A DNA stretch of 40,286 nucleotides from Pseudomonadota bacterium (lineage in GTDB: Bacteria; Pseudomonadota; Alphaproteobacteria; Acetobacterales; Acetobacteraceae), in contig JAKAEC010000011.1 in the NCBI GenBank assembly GCA_021818425.1, positions 1-40,286 of the forward strand. The letters are read 5' to 3'. Positions within the stretch are counted from its first letter, which is position 1. Every line of letters begins with the position of its first letter. The translations under genes were made by a program, and so were the position numbers. This document shows positions 17,232 to 28,899 of this stretch, piece after piece. The notes below the pieces were generated by a model, which searched no databases, was not told the DNA's origin, and saw only the letters and a list, made by a program, of their open reading frames with translations.

Positions 17232-18181
17232 TAGGCCGCCAGTTGCTTCGCCCGGGCCGCGCGCAAGTCCTTAAAATCCGCATCCGCATGATAGGATGAG
17301 CGGGTGAGCGGGCTTGCAGAGACCTGCAAGAAGCCCTTGGCCCGTGCCATGCCTGCCAACTCCTTAAACTCTTCCGGCGTCCAGAATTTCTCTACCGCTG
17401 CGTGCTTTGCCGTCGGCTGGAGGTACTGGCCTATGGTGATGAAGTCCACATCAGCGATGCGCAGATCATCCATCACCTGGGAGATTTCGGACTTACTTTC
17501 TCCCAGTCCCACCATCAGCCCAGATTTGGTAAATATCGAGGGGTTGATCTCCTTCACGCGATCCAAGAGCCGGATGGATTGATAATACCGCGCCCCTGGC
17601 CGGATGCTAGGATAGAGCCGTGGCACCGTCTCGAAATTATGGTTGAATACGTCCGGTCGTGCGCCAGCCACAACCTCGATGGCGCTCGGCTTGCGCAGGA
17701 AATCTGGCGTCAAAATCTCGATCGTGGTTTCGGCGGCGGCTAGGCGGACGGCGGCAATCACGGCAGCGAAATGCGCAGCACCGCCATCGACCAAATCGTC
17801 GCGGTCAACCGAGGTGATCACCACATGCCGCAGGCCCAGCTGCACCACGGCTTGCGCCACGCGGTGAGGTTCATCGGCATCCAGCGGAGCCGGCAGCCCG
17901 GTGGAAACATTGCAGAAGGCGCAGGCACGGGTGCAGATTTCGCCCATTATCATCATGGTGGCGTGACGCTGAGACCAGCATTCTCCAATATTCGGGCAAG
18001 AAGCTTCCTCGCAGACAGTAGCAAGTTTTTGCTCGCGTATCAGTGCCCTTGTCTCGTGATATACGCGATGGGTCGGCGCCTTCACGCGGATCCAAGATGG
18101 CTTGCGGACAATCGGGTTGTCAGGGCGGTGTTGTTTCTCCGGGTGACGAACACGGTGGTCTATCTCGATGCGTGTGGCCAT
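17231..18181 (-). CDS. lipA: Lipoyl synthase
   Basis: This 316-residue radical SAM enzyme inserts two sulfurs into octanoyl groups on lipoyl domains. Both iron-sulfur sites are complete: the auxiliary cluster motif [12 protein letters not shown] with Cys57, Cys62 and Cys68, and the radical SAM motif CTRACAFC with Cys83, Cys87 and Cys90. The C-terminal LTRSSYHAD includes the Ser that ligates the auxiliary cluster. Length is normal. It lies downstream of pdhABC and lpd on the same strand, so cofactor assembly is placed with its main client, the lipoyl domains of PdhB and PdhC. ATG 18181 is 47 bases after the lpd stop. Confidence 0.97.
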
Positions 18182-18228
18182 TTTAACGCCTGCCTGAATA
18201 GCAGCCCCGCAAGGAGGTGCATTGTAGT

Positions 18229-19623
18229 TTAGAAGTGGATAACCCGCCCGAACGCGTCAAGCACGGATTCGTGCATGGCCTCCGAAATGGTGGGGTGCGG
18301 AAACACCGTCTCCATCAAGTCTTCTTCCGTGGTTTCCAACTGCCGGGCCACCACGTAGCCCTGGATCATTTCGGTCACTTCCGCCCCGATCATATGGGCG
18401 CCCAGAAGCGCGCCAGTCTTGGCGTCGAAGATGGTTTTCACCAGCCCTTCGGGTTCGCCCAGCGCAATTGCCTTGCCGTTACCGACAAACGGAAAACGCC
18501 CAACCTTCACCTCATGCCCGGCGTCCCTGGCCTTTTGCTCGGTTAGCCCCACGCTGGCCACCTGTGGTCGGGCATAGGTGCAGCCGGGGATGTTCCAGGT
18601 CTCGAACGGGCGCGGGTTCAGTCCTGCAATGGCTTCCACGCACACCACGCCCTCATGGCTTGCCTTATGCGCGAGCCATGGTGGTCCAGCGAGATCGCCG
18701 ATGGCATAAACGCCGGGTTCTCCGGTGCGGCCATAGCCGTCCACCATCACATGGGTGCGGTCGACCACAACTTTAGTGTTTTCCAACCCGATATTCTCGA
18801 TATTGCCGATAATACCAACCGCCGAGATTACCTTCTCCACCACGAACGCCTGGCTCTTGTTGCCAGCCTCCACGGTAACTTTAACGGAATTTGGCCCCTT
18901 TTCGGCCTTCTTCACCACGGCCGAGGTGAGGATCTTGATGCCCTGTTTCTCGAAGCTCCTTTGCGCCAAGCTAGAGATTTCGGCATCCTCAACGGGTAGT
19001 ATGCGGTCTAGCATCTCCACCACCGTCACATCCACGCCGAGCGTGTTGTAGAAGCTCGCGAACTCAATGCCGATGGCCCCTGACCCCACAATCAGGAGGG
19101 ATTTCGGCAAGGTTTCCGGCACCATGGCCTCAAAATAGGACCAGATCTGTTTACCATCCACTTCCAGCCCAGGAAGCTGTCGCGGCCGCGCGCCGGTTGC
19201 CAGGATAATATGCGGGGCTTCCAGCTGTGCCACCGGCTTGCCATCGCGCGAGACCGAAAGATTACCCTCTCCCATCAGTTTACCGAAGCCGTCGTAAACC
19301 GTAACCTTGTTTTTCCTCATCAAATGGCCGATGCCGCTGGAGAGTTGCTTGGACACCGCTCGCGAGCGTGCCACCACCTTCGCCAGATCCACCTTCACAT
19401 CGCTAACGCTGATGCCGAACGCATCAGCATGGTCGATCAGGTGCTTCACCTCGGCCGAACGTAGCAGGGCCTTAGTGGGAATGCAGCCCCAGTTTAAACA
19501 GATGCCGCCAAGATGCTTGGCCTCGACCAGTGCCACCTTCAACTTCAGCTGTGCAGCGCGGATGGCGGCGACGTAGCCGCCCGGCCCGCCGCCCACCACG
19601 ATCACGTCGAATTTGTCAGCCAT
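18229..19623 (-). CDS. lpdA: Dihydrolipoamide dehydrogenase (E3)
   Basis: The 464-residue FAD enzyme reoxidises dihydrolipoyl groups of the pyruvate dehydrogenase complex and makes NADH. The FAD-binding site is [10 protein letters not shown] at 11-20. The redox disulfide is in [13 protein letters not shown] with Cys42 and Cys47. The NAD site is around [13 protein letters not shown]. The C-terminal [12 protein letters not shown] holds the active-site His and Glu. The NWG variant of the disulfide motif is common in pdh-linked E3 proteins of alphaproteobacteria. ATG 19623 has GGGGAT upstream and lies 14 bases after pdhC, consistent with an operon. Confidence 0.96.
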
Positions 19624-19637
19624 GTTGCAATCCCCGT

Positions 19638-20945
19638 TTATAGCAGCAGGCCAAGCGGCTCTTCGAGCAGGCCCTTGACGGTTTGAACGAATTCAGCCGC
19701 CCCCGCGCCATCCATCACGCGGTGGTCGGCGGACATGGTGATGCTCATCACCGTGGCGATTTTGATCTCGTCATCCTTCACTACTGGCCGTTTTGTCCCG
19801 GCGCCAATCGCCAGTATCCCGGCCTGAGGCGGGTTGATGATGGCAGTGAACTCCGCCGTGCCATACATGCCAAGATTGGAGATGGAGAAGGTGCCGCCTT
19901 GGAATTCTTCGGGCTTTAGCTTGCCAGTTTTCGCCCGGCCAGCCAGATCCTTCATGTTGTTAGAGATCGCGGCTAGGCCAAGCTGGTCGGCTTTGCGGAT
20001 GATCGGTGTAATCAATCCCTCCGGTATCGAAACGGCAACGGAAATGTCTACGTCGTGGTACTGGATGATCGCCTCTTCGGTCCAGGAGGCGTTCACATTC
20101 GGATGGCGGCGGAGCGCGATGGCGCAGGCTTTGATCACGAGATCGTTTACGGAGAGCTTGAACGCGCCCGGGCCCTCCTTCGGCGATTTGTTGTTCAGCT
20201 CGGTGCGCAGGGCCAACAGCTTGTCGATCTCCACATGCGCCGTAACATAGAAATTTGGTACCTCCTGCTTCGATTCCGTTAGGCGCTTGGCAATAACCTT
20301 ACGCATGGTGGAGTTTGGCACCTTCGTGTGCGGCGCGGTGATGGCTGGGGCCGTGGAAGCTGGTGCAGGTGCCGTACGGGTAGATGCAGTGGGTTTCGCC
20401 TGAGCGGGCGTAGGAAGCGACACGGAAGCAATGGGTTGCGTTGCCTTGGCGCTGGTCTGCGCGCCCTCCACATCCGCGCGTACAATTCGCCCATTTGGGC
20501 CGGATCCCTTGATTGTGGCAAGGTCAAGGCCGTTCTGTTTGGCGATGCGCCGGGCCAACGGCGATGCGACGATTCGCTCACCATGCGCGGTGCCATGCCC
20601 GCCACCGGATGGAGTGGTCGTTGGGGCAGCAGCCTTCGGCTCTTCCTTTAGCGCAGGTGTTTTTGCAGCGGGGGCGGCAGCCGGGGAATCCGCTATCTCG
20701 GCCTTCTCAGCGGTAATCACGCCAATCACGGTATTCACTGCAATACCTTCGCTGCCTTCGGGCACCACAATTTTGGCGAGGAAGCCTTCATCCGCAGCTT
20801 CCACTTCCATGGTCGCTTTGTCGGTCTCGATTTCGGCGATCACGTCGCCGGATTTGATCTCGTCCCCTTCCTGCTTGAGCCATTTGGCAAGTTTGCCCTC
20901 GGTCATGGTGGGAGAGAGGGCGGGCATCAGGATATTAATGGCCAT
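19638..20945 (-). CDS. pdhC: Dihydrolipoamide acetyltransferase (E2 of pyruvate dehydrogenase)
   Basis: The 435-residue core subunit transfers acetyl groups to CoA. There is one N-terminal lipoyl domain (about 2-77) with the lipoylated Lys43 in [11 protein letters not shown]. An Ala/Pro linker follows, then the peripheral subunit-binding domain at about 128-162 ([31 protein letters not shown]), a second Ala/Pro/Thr linker and the catalytic domain with HRVMDG at 408-413, His and Asp being the catalytic pair. GGGAGG precedes ATG 20945 by nine bases. The first 50 residues are nearly the same as those of PdhB, as expected from the shared lipoyl domain. Confidence 0.96.
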
Positions 20946-20963
20946 GTTGGAATGCCTCCCGGA

Positions 20964-22310
20964 TCAGAAGAATTTCTTCACGGCGTCTACGACCCAGCCA
21001 GGCTGGGGCAGCGCCAGTTTCTCGAGGTTGGCCGCATAGGGCATTGGCACATCCACGCCTGTCACGCGGGCGGGTGGGGCATCTAACCAGTCGAAGCAAT
21101 GTTCCACCACGGTCGCGATAATCTCCGAGCCGATGCCCGCAAACGGCCAGCCTTCTTCCACGCTAACTACTCGACCGGTCGTCTTCACCGACTCTACTAT
21201 GGTCTCGACATCGAGTGGTCGGATGGTGCGTAGATTGATCACTTCCGCGGAAATGCCCTGATCGGCCAACGCCTCGGCGGCCTTTAGCGCCACGTCCACC
21301 ATGATCGAGAAGGCGATGATCGTCACATCACTGCCCCGGCGTTCCACTTTGGCTTTACCAATGGGCAAAATGAAATCCTCATCCTCAGGCACCTCGAAAC
21401 TATGGCCGTAGAGGATCTCATGTTCCAGGAAGATTACCGGGTTCGGATCGCGGATGGCCGCGCGCAGCAAGCCTTTCGCATCGGCGGCGGACCAGGGGGC
21501 AATCACCTTCAGTCCGGGGCAATGCGAGTACCAGGAAGCATAGCACTGAGAGTGCTGAGCTGCGACGCGCGCCGCCGCCCCGTTCGGGCCGCGGAAGACG
21601 ATGGAAGCCCCCATCTGCCCGCCAGACATATAAAGTGTCTTGGCGGCGGAATTGATGATCTGGTCGATCGCCTGCATGGCGAAGTTGAAGGTCATGAATT
21701 CTAGGATCGGCTTCAGACCGTTCATTGCCGCTCCCACGGCCATGCCAGTGAAGCCGTGCTCGGTAATGGGCGTGTCGATCACGCGGCGGGGACCGAATTC
21801 ATCGAGCATCCCTTGGCTGATCTTGTAGGCGCCCTGATATTGGGCGACTTCCTCGCCAATTAGGAATACGTCCTTGTCGGCACGCATCTCGACCACCATC
21901 GCCTCGCGTAACGCCTCGCGTACCGTCATGGTCCTGGTCTTGCCCCACTCCTTCTCAACCGTTTCCTTCGGTGTGGTGTTGGTTCTTTTCTGCTGGGCCG
22001 GGGCATTCGTCCTTGGCGTCTCTGTGGGTGAGGTCTGCGGGCCGGGCTTTAGCTCTTCCTTCGTCTGTTCTCCGTCGCCGTTTAGCCGGGCGATTACGGC
22101 ATTGACCGCCACGCCCTCGCTTCCTTCCGGCACCAAAATCTCGGTCAGAGTGCCCTCATCCACGGCTTCCACTTCCATGGTCGCTTTGTCGGTCTCGATT
22201 TCAGCCAGAATATCGCCGGACTTCACCTCATCGCCCACGTCTTTTAGCCATTTGGCAAGCTTGCCCTCGGTCATGGTGGGGGAGAGGGCGGGCATCAGTA
22301 TATCGGTCAT
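20964..22310 (-). CDS. pdhB: Pyruvate dehydrogenase E1 beta with N-terminal lipoyl domain
   Basis: The 448-residue protein joins a lipoyl domain (about 1-77, Lys42 in [11 protein letters not shown]) through a polar Pro/Thr/Glu linker to an E1-beta transketolase-like domain beginning near residue 122 ([20 protein letters not shown]). E1-beta signatures include [35 protein letters not shown] and [20 protein letters not shown]. With PdhA it forms the thiamine diphosphate-dependent decarboxylase. An extra lipoyl domain on E1-beta is a known alphaproteobacterial trait, so the fusion is normal here. Five bases separate it from pdhA, pointing to coupled expression. Confidence 0.96.
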
Positions 22311-22315
22311 GGCGC

Positions 22316-23329
22316 TTAAGTCTCCACCAACACATTAGTATAAAGTTCGGAAGGGTCAGGCTCCGGCGAGGCTTGCGCAAAATCCGCCGCCGCCTGCACG
22401 CGCGCCTTCACGCTGTCGTCGAGCTTCCGCAGTTCGGCCTCGGAGACCCCCATCTCCTCCAGCTTCTTCCTGGCCGAATCTATGCAGTCATGCTCGGCGC
22501 GCATCTTTTGTACCTCCTCGCGGGTGCGGTATTTTGCTGGGTCAGACATCGAGTGCCCGCGGTAGCGGTAAGTCTTCATTTCCAGCAGGAACGGCCCCTT
22601 GCCGGCCCGGCAATGCGCCACCGCCTGCTCGCCGGCCGCCTTTACAGCCAGCACATCCATACCGTCCACGGCCATGCTTGGCATGCCCCATGGCGAAGCG
22701 TTATGTGAAAGGTCGGTGGAGGCTGTAGCGCGCTCGATCGACGTGCCCATGGCGTAGCGGTTGTTTTCGATAATAAACACGACAGGCAGCTTGAATAGAG
22801 AGGCCAAGTTGTAGCTTTCATATACCTGGCCCTGGTTGGAAGCGCCCTCGCCAAAATAGGTGAGGCAGACGGCATCATTCTGCCGATACCAGTTGGAAAA
22901 GCCGATGCCGGTGCCCAGTGAAACCTGCGCGCCGACGATGCCGTGCCCGCCGAAGAAGCCTTTCTCCTTCGAGAACATATGCATGGAACCACCTTTGCCC
23001 TTGGAATAGCCGCCGCTGCGCCCGGTCAGCTCCGCCATCACGCCTTTTGGGTCCATGCCCGTGGCCAGCATATGGCCATGGTCGCGGTAGGAGGTAATCA
23101 CCTCATCGCCGTCCTTCAGGCAATGCTGCATGCCGATTACCACAGCCTCTTGCCCGATATAAAGATGGCAGAACCCGGCGATGAGGCCCGTGCCGTAAAG
23201 CTGCCCGGCCTTTTCCTCGAAACGGCGGATCAGCAACATACGCTCATAGGCGCCCAACAATTCGTCCCGGCTCATCGCAGCGGCGGGTTTTCTATTGGGC
23301 TTTTTGGTTTTGTCAGGGCTTGCGGCCAT
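22316..23329 (-). CDS. pdhA: Pyruvate dehydrogenase E1 alpha
   Basis: This 337-residue subunit binds thiamine diphosphate and decarboxylates pyruvate together with PdhB. Visible signatures are [20 protein letters not shown] at 35-54, YRDHGHML at 81-88, [10 protein letters not shown] at 110-119, and the cofactor motif starting at GEGASNQG (160-167) and ending at [10 protein letters not shown] (Asn189, Asn190). The phosphorylation-loop-like segment [16 protein letters not shown] is present near 255. ATG 23329 opens the pdhA-pdhB-pdhC-lpd-lipA-COQ10 block. The 235 bases upstream contain a perfect palindrome (23439-23461) that may end ftsB transcription or bind a regulator. Confidence 0.96.
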
Positions 23330-24022: not shown

Positions 24023-24874
24023 TTAAGGCCACTTCGCCTCAGGTGGCATGGACATCAGGATCGCCTCTGTATTACCGCCGGTTTTCAGGCCGAAGGTTGT
24101 GCCCCGGTCATAAAGCAGATTGAACTCCACATAGCGCCCGCGCCGGATTAGTTGCGCCTCGCGTTCCTCGGGCGTGTAGCGCTCGTGCATACGCCGCCTT
24201 GCAATGGGGGGGTAGGCCGCGAGGAACGCCTCGCCTACATCGCGAGTGAAGGCAAAATCGGCTGCTACATCGCCGCTATCCAGGTAGTCGTAAAAAATTC
24301 CTCCGGAGCCGCGCGGTTCGCCCCGGTGTGGCAGGTAGAAATACTCATCGCACCAAGTCTTGAACTTTTCATAATAGCTGGGGTCGTGTCGGTCGCAGGC
24401 AGTCTTGTAGGCGGCATGGAAGCAGGCGGCATCCTCAGCGGCGGCTTCGGTGTCGGGTTGCAGCGGTGTAATGTCACCGCCTCCACCGAACCACCCCTTT
24501 GCCGTCACAATCATTCTCGTGTTCATATGCACGGCCGGCACCTTGGGGCTACGCGGATGCGCTACCAGTGAAATGCCCGCAGCCCAGAATTTGGCGCAAG
24601 CCTCTGTGCCGGGGAGCCGGCCGGCGAATTCGGCGGTTAAGTCGCCAGCTACTACGGAAATGTTTACTCCCGCCTTTTCGAACACCTGCCCTCGCAGCAG
24701 GCTCATCTCACCGCCGCCGCCGCCGGGCCTGTCCCAGGCTGTGCGGGCGAAGCGAGCCGTGCTTGCGGCCTCACTCTCAATTGCCTCGAATTCGGTGCAG
24801 ATCCGGTCGCGCAATGCTGCGAACCACGAAGCGGCCGCAGGCTTCAGTGTTTCGTGAAGAGGAGGCTCAATCAT
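24023..24874 (-). CDS. hemF: Oxygen-dependent coproporphyrinogen III oxidase
   Basis: This 283-residue enzyme performs the two oxidative decarboxylations of coproporphyrinogen III in heme synthesis and needs molecular oxygen. Family motifs are complete: FEKAGVNISVVAG, VHMNTRMIVTAKGWFGGGGD around 120-139, HRGEPRGSGGIFYDYLDSG, and the C-terminal EFNLLYDRGTTFGLKTGGNT followed by EAILMSMPPEAKWP. Length is normal. ATG 24874 has no strong ribosome binding site. It is divergent from petA with 107 bases between start codons, so heme supply and the cytochrome operon may share a control region; that is inference. Confidence 0.96.
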   Translation of the reverse strand: MIEPPLHETLKPAAASWFAALRDRICTEFEAIESEAASTARFARTAWDRPGGGGGEMSLLRGQVFEKAGVNISVVAGDLTAEFAGRLPGTEACAKFWAAGISLVAHPRSPKVPAVHMNTRMIVTAKGWFGGGGDITPLQPDTEAAAEDAACFHAAYKTACDRHDPSYYEKFKTWCDEYFYLPHRGEPRGSGGIFYDYLDSGDVAADFAFTRDVGEAFLAAYPPIARRRMHERYTPEEREAQLIRRGRYVEFNLLYDRGTTFGLKTGGNTEAILMSMPPEAKWP

Positions 24875-24981: not shown

Positions 24982-25539
24982 ATGGCTGAATCAACAGCGG
25001 GCCCAGATGCCGTGCCGCCAGAGGCTGGTCGGCGTGATTTCTTAAAAATTCTTGCCATGGCGGGCGGCGCCGTAGGAGTGGGCTCGGTGGTTTGGCCACT
25101 ACTTGGCGCGCTGACCCCTGGCGCTGGCGGCAAGGCGCAAGCCCGGCCAATCATCAATGTGTCGGACATTGCCGAGAATAGTGCCAAGGCGGTGCAATGG
25201 GCGGGCTTGCCGATATTGATCCGGCGGCTGACCGACCAGCAGATCGCCGTTGCTTCCGTGGTGGCAATGGCGGACCTTCCCGACCCCGCGGAGGTTTCTT
25301 CCCGAGTAGCTCCCGGCAACAGGCATTTCGTGGTGGTGGTAGGGTTGAACACCGGCATACCCTGTCAGCTTGAGGGCAATAGCCCCACCGACCCGCGCGG
25401 CCACTACGACGGTTGGGTGTGCCCGTGTGATGGCAGCGAATACGACGTGCTGGGGCGCGTGCGCTCTGGTCCTGCGAAGTACAACCTTGCCATCCCGCGC
25501 TTCACCTTCATCAACAATAATCAGATCCAGCTTGGTTAA
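24982..25539 (+). CDS. petA: Rieske-family subunit of cytochrome bc1, cluster ligands lost
   Basis: The 185-residue protein starts at ATG 24982 after GGGGAG. It has a twin-arginine-like leader RRDFLKILAMAGGAVGVGS from residue 17 that also forms the membrane anchor, a bc1-type neck region (LPILIRRLTDQQI) and a Rieske fold. The first cluster box, normally CTHLGC, reads NTGIPC at 123-128: the Cys ligand is Asn123 and the His ligand is Gly125. The second, normally CPCHGS, reads CPCDGS at 147-152: Cys147 remains but the His ligand is Asp150. Only one of four [2Fe-2S] ligands survives, while the disulfide cysteines Cys128 and Cys149 remain. It should not bind a normal Rieske cluster. The frame is open and the rest of the fold (GWVCPC, EYDVLGRVRSGPAKYNL) is well kept. 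Confidence 0.88.
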   Translation: MAESTAGPDAVPPEAGRRDFLKILAMAGGAVGVGSVVWPLLGALTPGAGGKAQARPIINVSDIAENSAKAVQWAGLPILIRRLTDQQIAVASVVAMADLPDPAEVSSRVAPGNRHFVVVVGLNTGIPCQLEGNSPTDPRGHYDGWVCPCDGSEYDVLGRVRSGPAKYNLAIPRFTFINNNQIQLG

Positions 25540-25549
25540 GGAGGGGCAG

Positions 25550-26656
25550 ATGCGAGTTGAAGCAAAGCAAGGTTGGTTGGCGTCGCGTGTGCCCGGGTTT
25601 ACGTGTGTTCGCGACATGCTGTGCGAAAGCCGTTCCCCCGGCGCGCCATGGCTGGCCACGCTGCCGACGCTTCTGGCCGCGATGTTGGTGTTACTGCTGG
25701 CGTCGGGCGTCGTGCTTGCCCCGTTCTACGACCCTCGGCATGCCTACGCCGCGCTGCAGACAATCATGCGAGATGTGCCAGGCGGCTGGTTGGTTTTGAG
25801 CTATCATCAGATTGGCGCGAGCCTCGCTTTTGCCCTGCTGTATCTACATCTTTTCCGAATACTGCTCGTGCGCGGTTACCGCGCCCCGGCTGAATTCGGC
25901 TGGATGCTCTGGGTGAAGCTGCTCGTGGTATTGCTACTCGCTGGCTGGATGGGGTTCGTACTGAATGGCGGCGTCGGGGGACACTCATCGCTGTTCAATG
26001 CCGTCAATGCCGCAATGCTGCTCCCAGGCATTCCTGGCGCAGTGGCGATGTGGGTTTTCGGCGGAGCGTCGGGTGGTGCCACGTTGGCGCGGTTGCTGGT
26101 GTTTCATGCGCTGCTAGCGCTATGCGCGGCGTGGATCATTCTGATGGCATTCGCTGCCGACAAAAAAGCCCGGCCAGTGCTGCAAGGGCCGGGTGTGCCA
26201 TTCTGGCCAATTTATGCGGCGCAGTACTTTGCGGCGCTCTCAGTGCTGGCACTGGTGTTCGCCGTGCTACTCGGTTTTGTACCGCATTGGGGGCAGGGCA
26301 CGCAAAATACCATCCCTGCTGCTACCGCAGTAATACCGGCTGCTATCTCCTACCCATGGTATCTTACCCCGGCTGCTGGACTGGCGGGAGCTTTTCCTGG
26401 GGTGGCCGGGCATATCTGTGCGATGATTCTGGCAGCGGCGCTGCTTTATGCACTGCCCTGGTTGGACCGCTCCCGCGGCGCGCGGCATGGGCGGGTTTAC
26501 ATGGCGCTGACTTGGCTCTTGGGAGTGGACGTATTGATGCTTGGACTGGTGACTGCCTTTCCCATGGGGGGAGTGCTGCCGAAGTTGCTCGGCCTTTGGT
26601 TCTATTTCCACTTCCTTGTGCTCACGCCGTTGGTAACGATGATGGAGGCCGCATGA
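25550..26656 (+). CDS. petB: Cytochrome b subunit of bc1, catalytic motifs degraded
   Basis: The 368-residue membrane protein starts at ATG 25550 behind AAGGAGGGG and ends in an ATGA overlap with petC. Fold and helix order follow cytochrome b (MRDVPGGWLVLSYHQIGASL, YLHLFRILLVRGYRAPAEFG, FYFHFLVLTPLV). Heme ligands His86, His100 and His186 are present, but the fourth, expected 14 residues after His186, is Ala200, so heme bH lacks a ligand. The Qo-site PEWY is YPWY at 268-271, losing the Glu. The PWGQ segment after GYVL reads NGGV. The Qi-side KD pair after VPF-P is QY. The usual LH..G..NP turn is absent. It is shorter than the 400-430 residues usual in alphaproteobacteria. Quinol oxidation of the normal kind is unlikely. 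Confidence 0.85.
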   Translation: MRVEAKQGWLASRVPGFTCVRDMLCESRSPGAPWLATLPTLLAAMLVLLLASGVVLAPFYDPRHAYAALQTIMRDVPGGWLVLSYHQIGASLAFALLYLHLFRILLVRGYRAPAEFGWMLWVKLLVVLLLAGWMGFVLNGGVGGHSSLFNAVNAAMLLPGIPGAVAMWVFGGASGGATLARLLVFHALLALCAAWIILMAFAADKKARPVLQGPGVPFWPIYAAQYFAALSVLALVFAVLLGFVPHWGQGTQNTIPAATAVIPAAISYPWYLTPAAGLAGAFPGVAGHICAMILAAALLYALPWLDRSRGARHGRVYMALTWLLGVDVLMLGLVTAFPMGGVLPKLLGLWFYFHFLVLTPLVTMMEAA

Positions 26657-27360
26657 TGCGCCGTTTTTTTGCCTCTTTGTTGGCGGGCGGGCTGTTGGCA
26701 GGTGTTGGCGCGCACGCGCAGGACACACTTGCCCCGCTGCGGTTCCAGTCGGACGGTGTCTTCGGCAGCATAGACTTGGCTGCAGCGCAGCGTGGTTTTG
26801 CTGTTTATCAGGGCGTTTGCGCAAGCTGCCATGGCATGAAGGCGTTACATTACCGGGATCTGGAGGCGCTGGGGCTGACCCCGGAGCAGGTGGCGGGCAT
26901 CGCCGCCGGCGTGAAACTGGCCGATGGCCACGCCGCGACACCGAATTCCCGTTTCAAGCAGCCGCCGTTGGTCAGCAGAGGGGGGGCGGTGCCGCCGGAC
27001 CTTTCCAGCATCGTTGCGCAGCGTTCTGGCGGTACGCATTATATATACGACTTTCTCACCGGTTTTGGCCCAGCCCCAGCAGGTGTTACGCTGCTAACCG
27101 GCCATTCCTACAATGGCGCCTTTCCGGGAGGGCAGGTTGCTATGCCAGCTGTGTTGCATGACAATGCGGTGGCCTATGCCGATGGCACGAAAGCTACTAC
27201 GGCGCAGGAAGCTGCAGATGTGGCGGAGTTCTTGACCTGGTCTGCGGATCCAAATCTTTCGACCCGGCATGCGGTGGGGGTGCGTGCGGTGATCTTCTTC
27301 GCCTTCCTGGTGATCGTGGCGGTGCTGACGAAGCGCCGGATATGGCGGGAGAGGGGCTAA
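26653..27360 (+). CDS. petC: Cytochrome c1
   Basis: The 235-residue protein has a cleavable-type signal (RRFFASLLAGGLLAGVGAHAQ), a heme c motif CASCH at 56-60 followed by MKALHYRDL, the family block YNGAFPGGQVAMPAVL with axial ligand Met164, GAVPPDLSSIVAQRSGGTHY upstream of it, and a C-terminal anchor helix at about 210-226 with basic RRIWRERG after it. Unlike its two operon partners it keeps all residues needed to bind its cofactor. ATG 26653 overlaps the petB stop; ATG 26656 is an alternative, both served by GGAGG at 26644. Normally c1 takes electrons from the Rieske protein; with that protein altered, its present electron donor is unclear. Confidence 0.92.
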   Translation: MMRRFFASLLAGGLLAGVGAHAQDTLAPLRFQSDGVFGSIDLAAAQRGFAVYQGVCASCHGMKALHYRDLEALGLTPEQVAGIAAGVKLADGHAATPNSRFKQPPLVSRGGAVPPDLSSIVAQRSGGTHYIYDFLTGFGPAPAGVTLLTGHSYNGAFPGGQVAMPAVLHDNAVAYADGTKATTAQEAADVAEFLTWSADPNLSTRHAVGVRAVIFFAFLVIVAVLTKRRIWRERG

Positions 27361-27928
27361 GTGACGTCGTGGAGGCGGTGCGTACCTGCCGCCTCTGCCA
27401 TAGTATACTGCCGCTTGGTGCCAGGCCCGTTTTACGCGTCTCCACCATGGCAAAGCTGTTGGTCATCTACCAGGCGCCGGGCACTAGGGCTCATGCCCGC
27501 CTCTTGCCGTTTAATGATGCCTCGGGTGACCGCTTGCGCGCCTGGATGGGTATTGGCCTATTGGCGGCCGCGATATTTTTCACGACGAAACACGCATAGC
27601 CTTTATGGCCATGGGGTTTTGCTACCCTGGCCGTCTGCCCAGTGGCGGCGACGCCCCGCCGCAACCGGAATGCGCGTCACTCTGGCATGCAGCACTACTG
27701 ACGCGAATGCCGCAAATCGAGCCGGTCCTGCTCGTCGGCGGCTATGTGCTGCGGCGCCATCTTGGCAACGCAAACATGACGGCGGCCGTTCGCGCCCACG
27801 CCCTAGCCGGCTCCTTCGTGCTGCTTTCCCACCCTTCCTGGCGCACCACTGCCTGGGAACAGAATAATTCCTGGCGTGGCGCAGAGGTTTTGCCAAGGTT
27901 GAAGGTGGAAGTTGCGCGGCTGATATAA
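27342..27928 (+). pseudogene. Frameshifted uracil-DNA glycosylase-superfamily gene
   Basis: Two frames together make one protein of the uracil-DNA glycosylase superfamily. The first (from ATG 27342, overlapping the petC end) gives EAVRTCRLCHSILPLGARP, LLVIYQAPGTRAH and LPFNDASGDRLRAWMGIG. The second gives IFHDETRIAFMAMGFCYPGR, PPQPECASLWHAALLTRMP and LLSHPSWRT, ending at 27928. They are joined by a single shift between about 27555 and 27575. The active-site QAPGTR and HPS blocks are both present, so only the frameshift breaks the gene. A sequencing error or programmed event cannot be excluded, but pseudogenes elsewhere in the window make true decay plausible. Confidence 0.8.
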
Positions 27929-28017
27929 ATTTCGGGACTTTCCTGGCGGCTTCCTCTATATAGGAGCCGCAACATGCTGGCGCGGCGGCAGAACCGCGCG
28001 GATTGAGGATTATGACC

Positions 28018-28899
28018 ATGCATTTACGCAATCCCATTGAATGGGTGGCAGGTCAGTTCGCAGCCCCAGCCAGAACCGTTGGGTGCGCTCCGCCCGAGGT
28101 TTATTGGCCTCTGTCGCAGAAGACAGCAATTCCTGAAATCCAGGCCATCACCATGGAGGATTTGAAGGCGGCGCTGCGGCTTGGGCTGAATGACTTTGTA
28201 GCCTGCCGCACGGACGTGATCTTTCTTTGCGTGATTTATCCAGTGATAGGCTTGTTCATAGCTGGGGCCGAGGCGCAAGGCGGGTTGTTACATCTCGTGT
28301 TTCCCACGGTTGCGGGTTTCGCGCTGGTGGGACCGTTTTTCGCGCTGGGGCTTTTTGAGATGAGCCGCCAGCGCGAATTGACGGGCAAGATCCGCTGGCT
28401 TGATACGTTCAACGTGCTGCGCTCCCCCTCCATCGGGTCCATCGCCCTAATGGGCCTGGTGCTTGTTGGGTTGTTCTTGACTTGGCTGGCGGTGGCGCAT
28501 GGCATCTACCGTATGACACTTGGGGGTGCTACGCCGGAGTCGATTGGCGTGTTCATGCGGGATGTCTTTGCCACGCAGGCGGGGTGGGCAATGATCGCGC
28601 TCGGTTGGGCTACCGGGGCACTATTCGCGGCCGTTGTGTTGGCGATCAGCGTGGTGTCGTTCCCGTTGATGCTGGATCGGCCGACAACTCTCCGCACCGC
28701 GATGGCGGTTTCGTCGAGGGCGATGCGACGTAACCCGGGCTATCTGGGATGTTGGGGGGTGCTGGTGGGTAGCGCGTTGTTTGTGGCAGCCCTGCCCTGC
28801 TTTGTCGGGCTGATTGTAGTGCTGCCGGTTTTTGGGCATGCCACTTGGCATCTGTACCGCCGGGTTGTGAAGCCACCAATGGTGGAGGAGCGGGTGTGA
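28018..28899 (+). CDS. DUF2189 membrane protein
   Basis: The 293-residue protein has about six membrane helices and the DUF2189 pattern. A cytosolic N-terminus with IPEIQAITMEDLKAALRLGL leads into a helix with DVIFLCVIYPVIGLF. FPTVAGFALVGPFFALGLFE and MSRQRE follow, and later come SFPLMLDRPTTLRTAMAVSS and FGHATWHLYRRVV. The function of this family is unknown. ATG 28018 is preferred because GAGG lies nine bases before it; ATG 28012 is also possible. It stands alone between two broken genes. Heme-copper-like or cytochrome-associated roles have no support here. Confidence 0.85.
   Translation: MHLRNPIEWVAGQFAAPARTVGCAPPEVYWPLSQKTAIPEIQAITMEDLKAALRLGLNDFVACRTDVIFLCVIYPVIGLFIAGAEAQGGLLHLVFPTVAGFALVGPFFALGLFEMSRQRELTGKIRWLDTFNVLRSPSIGSIALMGLVLVGLFLTWLAVAHGIYRMTLGGATPESIGVFMRDVFATQAGWAMIALGWATGALFAAVVLAISVVSFPLMLDRPTTLRTAMAVSSRAMRRNPGYLGCWGVLVGSALFVAALPCFVGLIVVLPVFGHATWHLYRRVVKPPMVEERV

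Follow-up and report, generated by a model that had tools for sequence, protein, structure and literature searches.

A Rieske subunit predicted to lack its [2Fe-2S] cluster in a retained cytochrome bc1 operon of a genus of Acetobacteraceae

The petABC operon and its degenerate cofactor sites

The window, i.e. the whole stretch of DNA analysed here (40,286 nucleotides, contig JAKAEC010000011.1 of assembly GCA_021818425.1, Acetobacteraceae), harbours a cytochrome bc1 operon, petABC, that begins with petA. The features of the operon are the following:

24982-25539, + strand: petA, Rieske subunit whose cluster site is incomplete, 185 aa (translation; TIGR01416 match above the cut-off)
25024-25113, + strand: Tat signal and membrane anchor, petA residues 15-44 (UCR_Fe-S_N match)
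25348-25365, + strand: petA box 1, NTGIPC; ligand Cys replaced by Asn, ligand His replaced by Gly, disulfide Cys128 kept (alignment)
25420-25437, + strand: petA box 2, CPCDGS; ligand Cys147 and disulfide Cys149 kept, ligand His replaced by Asp150 (alignment)
25550-26656, + strand: petB, degenerate cytochrome b, 368 aa (Cytochrome_B Pfam match)
25805-25807, + strand: petB His86, first haem bL ligand, kept (alignment)
25847-25849, + strand: petB His100, first haem bH ligand, kept; its partner position is not His (alignment)
26105-26107, + strand: petB His186, second haem bL ligand, kept (alignment)
26351-26362, + strand: petB YPWY in place of PEWY, the catalytic Glu replaced by Pro (alignment)
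26656-27360, + strand: petC, cytochrome c1, 234 aa (Cytochrom_C1 match, 200 bits)
26818-26832, + strand: cytochrome c1 haem-binding motif CASCH

The petA frame starts with ATG and is open over its 185 aa. Its product matched TIGR01416, the whole-protein model of the bc1-type Rieske subunit, at 118.5 bits (cut-off 97.4) and UCR_Fe-S_N, the model of the Tat signal and anchor, at 30.8 bits (cut-off 24); the score against the Pfam Rieske [2Fe-2S] domain was 15.2 bits, below the cut-off of 20.3. Among solved structures, phmmer matched petA to 57 distinct sequences (E ≤ 0.001), bc1 Rieske subunits such as 1zrt ranking highest. An AlphaFold model built from 4 sequences reached a mean pLDDT of only 44.4 and was set aside; the Rieske fold was therefore deduced from the sequence.

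When petA was aligned with 29 intact Rieske proteins from its family, NTGIPC (residues 123-128) fell in the CTHLGC columns and CPCDGS (residues 147-152) in the CPCHGS columns, and no displaced cluster ligands were found elsewhere in the petA protein. The intact proteins were recovered by a motif filter from 30 family loci, one of which gave none; as they were chosen by motif (CTH or CSH plus CPCHGS) among the best-scoring loci, they are intact by construction. One of the four [2Fe-2S] ligands is left in the window petA (Cys, His and His are now Asn, Gly and Asp), and the disulfide pair Cys128 and Cys149 is present; cysteines are assigned to the cluster or to the disulfide after the bovine structure. 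The original prediction had described three replaced ligands in an intact frame, with the disulfide cysteines, the leader and the anchor all retained, and the alignment and model matches agree with it on each count; both boxes fall within its interval, 25337-25456. With these ligands replaced, petA is predicted to encode a Rieske subunit without a bound cluster.

Alignment also showed that the neighbouring cytochrome b is crippled, a point missed by the original prediction. Compared to the canonical alphaproteobacterial bc1 complexes (1zrt, 2yiu), the window operon shares the family match above the cut-off, the Tat signal and anchor, the petABC gene order, the disulfide pair, the cytochrome c1 haem motif and the haem bL ligands; by contrast, the PEWY Glu is missing from it, as are three of the four cluster ligands and one of the haem bH ligands.

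As to the surroundings of the operon, petA is closely preceded, on the opposite strand, by a gene for coproporphyrinogen III oxidase, an enzyme of haem synthesis (24023-24871, -). Downstream of petC there is a DUF2189 membrane protein (28003-28896), separated from it by one ORF without a Pfam match (27361-27867). An ordinary pyruvate dehydrogenase cluster (17234-23329, -) is also present in the window; its genes encode E1, a lipoyl-domain-bearing subunit of the transketolase type, E2 and E3, and after them comes a radical SAM gene resembling lipoyl synthase.

Ligand replacement and selection across the genus

petA was found in 35 of the 38 genomes of the genus, including all 23 with at least 90% completeness and at most 5% contamination; the three genomes without it are 77-85% complete. 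Every one of the 35 genes encodes Asn at the position of ligand 1 and Asp at that of ligand 4, and both disulfide cysteines are kept in all of them. Ligand 2 is replaced by Gly in 29 and by Ala in 6. At ligand 3, 23 genes retain Cys and 12 have Ser, so that three ligands are lost in 23 genes and all four in 12. The replacements are genus-wide and old. The Asn codon is AAT in 12 genes and AAC in 23, the Asp codon GAT in 20 and GAC in 15. These changes are synonymous only and both residues therefore look held in place rather than drifting.

A DNA pattern for PCDGSxYD was present in 6 of 249 family genomes (102 genera), namely in all five genomes of this genus among the 249 and in 1 of the 244 others, where it falls in an unrelated frame. 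Among 34 petA proteins of the genus (that of G253, whose 5' part is missing, was excluded from this count and from the codon fit), 44 columns are invariant. The ancestral residue is conserved in 33 of them, the Ser and Tyr columns of box 2 among these. Seven of the remaining 11 (A43, L83, V117, N123, L130, D150 and L157) carry a residue absent from 28 intact proteins, a comparison set from which locus L028 (long ISP type) was excluded.

petA and petB occur together in 35 of 35 genomes and petC in 34, the last one being cut off by a contig end. In cytochrome b, the two haem bL ligand positions are His in 35 and 34 of the 35 proteins respectively, while at the haem bH positions His is found in 9 and 10 (G274, gapped at the second of these, was counted as lacking His there). 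Both bH ligands were retained in none of the 35 proteins and neither of them in 16. The Glu of PEWY is replaced by Pro throughout (35/35), and all 34 cytochrome c1 proteins keep CxxCH and the Met-ligand region. The bH positions vary widely and the bL positions are nearly fixed. With former cluster-ligand positions of petA fixed at new residues and bH positions variable, the census separates the parts of the complex still constrained from those set free.

One-ratio codon models gave an omega of 0.144 for petA (34 sequences), 0.163 for petB (35) and 0.108 for petC (34). Fixing omega at 1, with kappa fixed at 2.1 and the tree topology held, lowered lnL from -11175 to -12068 for petA (cost 893), from -26134 to -27661 for petB (cost 1527) and from -13551 to -14977 for petC (cost 1427). 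All three genes are under purifying selection. The intact petA of the family had an omega of 0.087 (27 genes; L028 and L021, which has the same boxes as L020, were left out of the codon rows). Constraint is thus looser in petA of this genus than in intact petA, and looser in petB than in petA.

In the five-genome clade of the window, nine of the 10 petA pairs gave a dN/dS of 0.108-0.169; the dS of the other pair was out of range. Across the genus, pairs with dS between 0.05 and 1 had a median dN/dS of 0.33 for petA (maximum 0.59, 218 pairs), 0.48 for petB (maximum 0.89, 203 pairs) and 0.30 for petC (maximum 0.58, 138 pairs); we ascribe the elevated ratios between distant genomes to saturation at synonymous sites. 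A very recent loss of function, one of the two readings first offered for petA, is not supported: the replacements are common to all 35 genes, and petA has an omega of 0.144, with omega = 1 far worse. The other reading, a new structural role, fares better in the form of a protein retained as a non-redox structural part, and had already been proposed (PMC10715153).

Other Rieske genes and respiratory complexes

The original prediction asked for a search for a second, complete Rieske gene, and none was found in the window's own genome or in the genus. In the own genome (86% complete) there was no second TIGR01416 match, and the one PF00355 match, a 421-aa frame on C80, is judged solely from its length to be a ring-hydroxylating oxygenase. 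No other bc1-type Rieske protein was found across the 38 genomes: the secondary TIGR01416 matches (11, in 10 genomes) all scored under the cut-off (20.1-22.9 bits vs. 97.4).

COX1-family matches were present in all 38 genomes. The own genome has three, with frames of 544, 696 and 559 aa (529, 434 and 247 bits respectively); by length, we take the 544-aa frame for a putative cytochrome c oxidase and the 696-aa frame for a putative bo3 quinol oxidase.

Complex I genes were detected in 32 of the 35 genomes with petA. NuoD was matched at E 1.7e-44 or better in 31 of them (in G253 and G264 in pieces only), and NuoA in one further genome, G258. NuoD and NuoA were both not found in G261 (96% complete), G266 and G271. 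The 51-kDa (NuoF) family had one match in G261 (531-aa frame) and none in G266 or G271. Around the nuo genes of G224, the single genome from which the gene order was taken, lie a putative HU gene, beside nuo, and a putative lolC, downstream of it. The HU gene had only 31-39% identical matches in G261, G266 and G271, and lolC was missing in G261 and G266 and present in G271. The missing Complex I genes of these three genomes are probably assembly gaps and not a counter-example. As nearly all petA-bearing genomes carry Complex I genes, co-occurrence says little about a link between this complex and the bc1 operon, and the present data speak neither for nor against the published proposal on Complex I.

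For three members of another genus of the same family (g96), cytochrome c1 is matched weakly (G096 and G153) or strongly (G232) and TIGR01416 not at all or very weakly; a further member, G196, has both matches. This pattern is possibly the petA loss published for Acidiphilium.

Known counterparts and the role of the retained complex

A ligand-less Rieske protein with its disulfide pair is already known in print. Degli Esposti et al. 2023 described Rieske proteins of Acidocella, acidophilic kin of the vinegar bacteria, without three or four of the ligands and with the disulfide pair kept, within a 'deranged' bc1 whose cytochrome b has lost haem bH ligands and whose cytochrome c1 is intact; a structural role was suggested for it, with stabilisation of Complex I as one suggestion (PMC10715153). 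The window petABC matches this complex in every respect that the available part of the article lets one compare. The genus shares with it the joint loss of haem bH and ISP ligands, at least one bH ligand being absent in 35 of 35 genomes. Given this fit, the genus is probably Acidocella. The same article describes a 'deranged' COX1-like protein of Acetobacter, likewise a respiratory protein kept without metal ligands, although it belongs to a different complex. To what the available part of the article reports, the present analysis adds a census of the genus and estimates of selection, together with an Asn/Asp pocket that is fixed; the replacement of the PEWY Glu by Pro is likewise absent from that part.

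We consider it probable that the window petABC encodes such a deranged bc1 without a Q cycle, kept most likely as a structural assembly. The Rieske subunit would still be made, exported through the Tat pathway, anchored, folded and disulfide-bonded, without the [2Fe-2S] cluster. Cytochrome b would keep its haem bL site but neither the bH site nor the Glu needed for catalysis at the quinol-oxidation site, and cytochrome c1 would keep its haem site. Without cluster, haem bH and a working Qo site, we infer that the complex cannot run the Q cycle. The assembly would hold cytochrome c1 and stabilise other respiratory complexes, among which Complex I is the published suggestion. A purely structural role leaves unexplained the invariant Asn and Asp at the ligand positions, the invariant Ser and Tyr of box 2 and the retained haem bL ligands.

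The fixed Asn and Asp and the retained bL ligands therefore leave room for a rebuilt function, which we regard as possible and rather unlikely. The complex would then be rebuilt, not broken, for another redox or sensing task: its Rieske head would have a new, strictly conserved Asn/Asp pocket where the cluster was, and haem bL and haem c1 would take part, outside the Q cycle, in electron transfer from a new donor to a cytochrome c oxidase. It may form a scaffold for a supercomplex into which electrons enter by a new route, or act as a redox-insensitive lock on cytochrome c1. Besides Asn and Asp codons that change only synonymously in 35 of 35 genes, and bL ligands fixed while bH positions vary, the seven invariant residues absent from the 28 intact proteins and the COX1-family genes of all 38 genomes are in accordance with it. 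However, no donor or partner was identified, the switches between Cys and Ser at ligand 3 and between Gly and Ala at ligand 2 speak against a new metal site, and invariance alone cannot separate redox from structural constraint.

We find it improbable that petABC is non-functional and slowly being lost, with nothing but chance or a coupling to petC holding it in place. The higher omega of petA compared to intact petA (0.144 vs. 0.087), the distant petB pairs with dN/dS up to 0.89 and the drifting haem bH positions would fit slow decay, but the whole operon is kept, omega = 1 is strongly rejected for petA, petB and petC, petA is retained in the 23 high-quality genomes and its 35 matches are full-length without inner stops (one is cut at the 5' end by a contig end). 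More doubtful still is a Rieske protein in which Asn, Cys and Asp would still hold an iron-sulphur cluster or some other metal. Cys147 is kept in the window and in 23 of 35 genes, with Asn and Asp conserved; however, it is Ser in the other 12, where no compensating residue was noticed, and the Gly/Ala position cannot ligate. A sequencing or assembly error behind the ligand changes, for which no supporting evidence was found, can be dismissed, and so can chance, as the same changes recur in independent assemblies of the genus (35/35 petA). Recent loss, a pseudogene and sequencing error were all rejected as main explanations by the genus census and the codon models.

Kept most likely as a structural assembly, the petABC complex of this genus would be a clear natural case of a respiratory complex that selection maintains although its electron-transfer chemistry is gone. 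Such a case opens to experiment the question whether complex III may be required purely as a scaffold, which its catalysis usually obscures.
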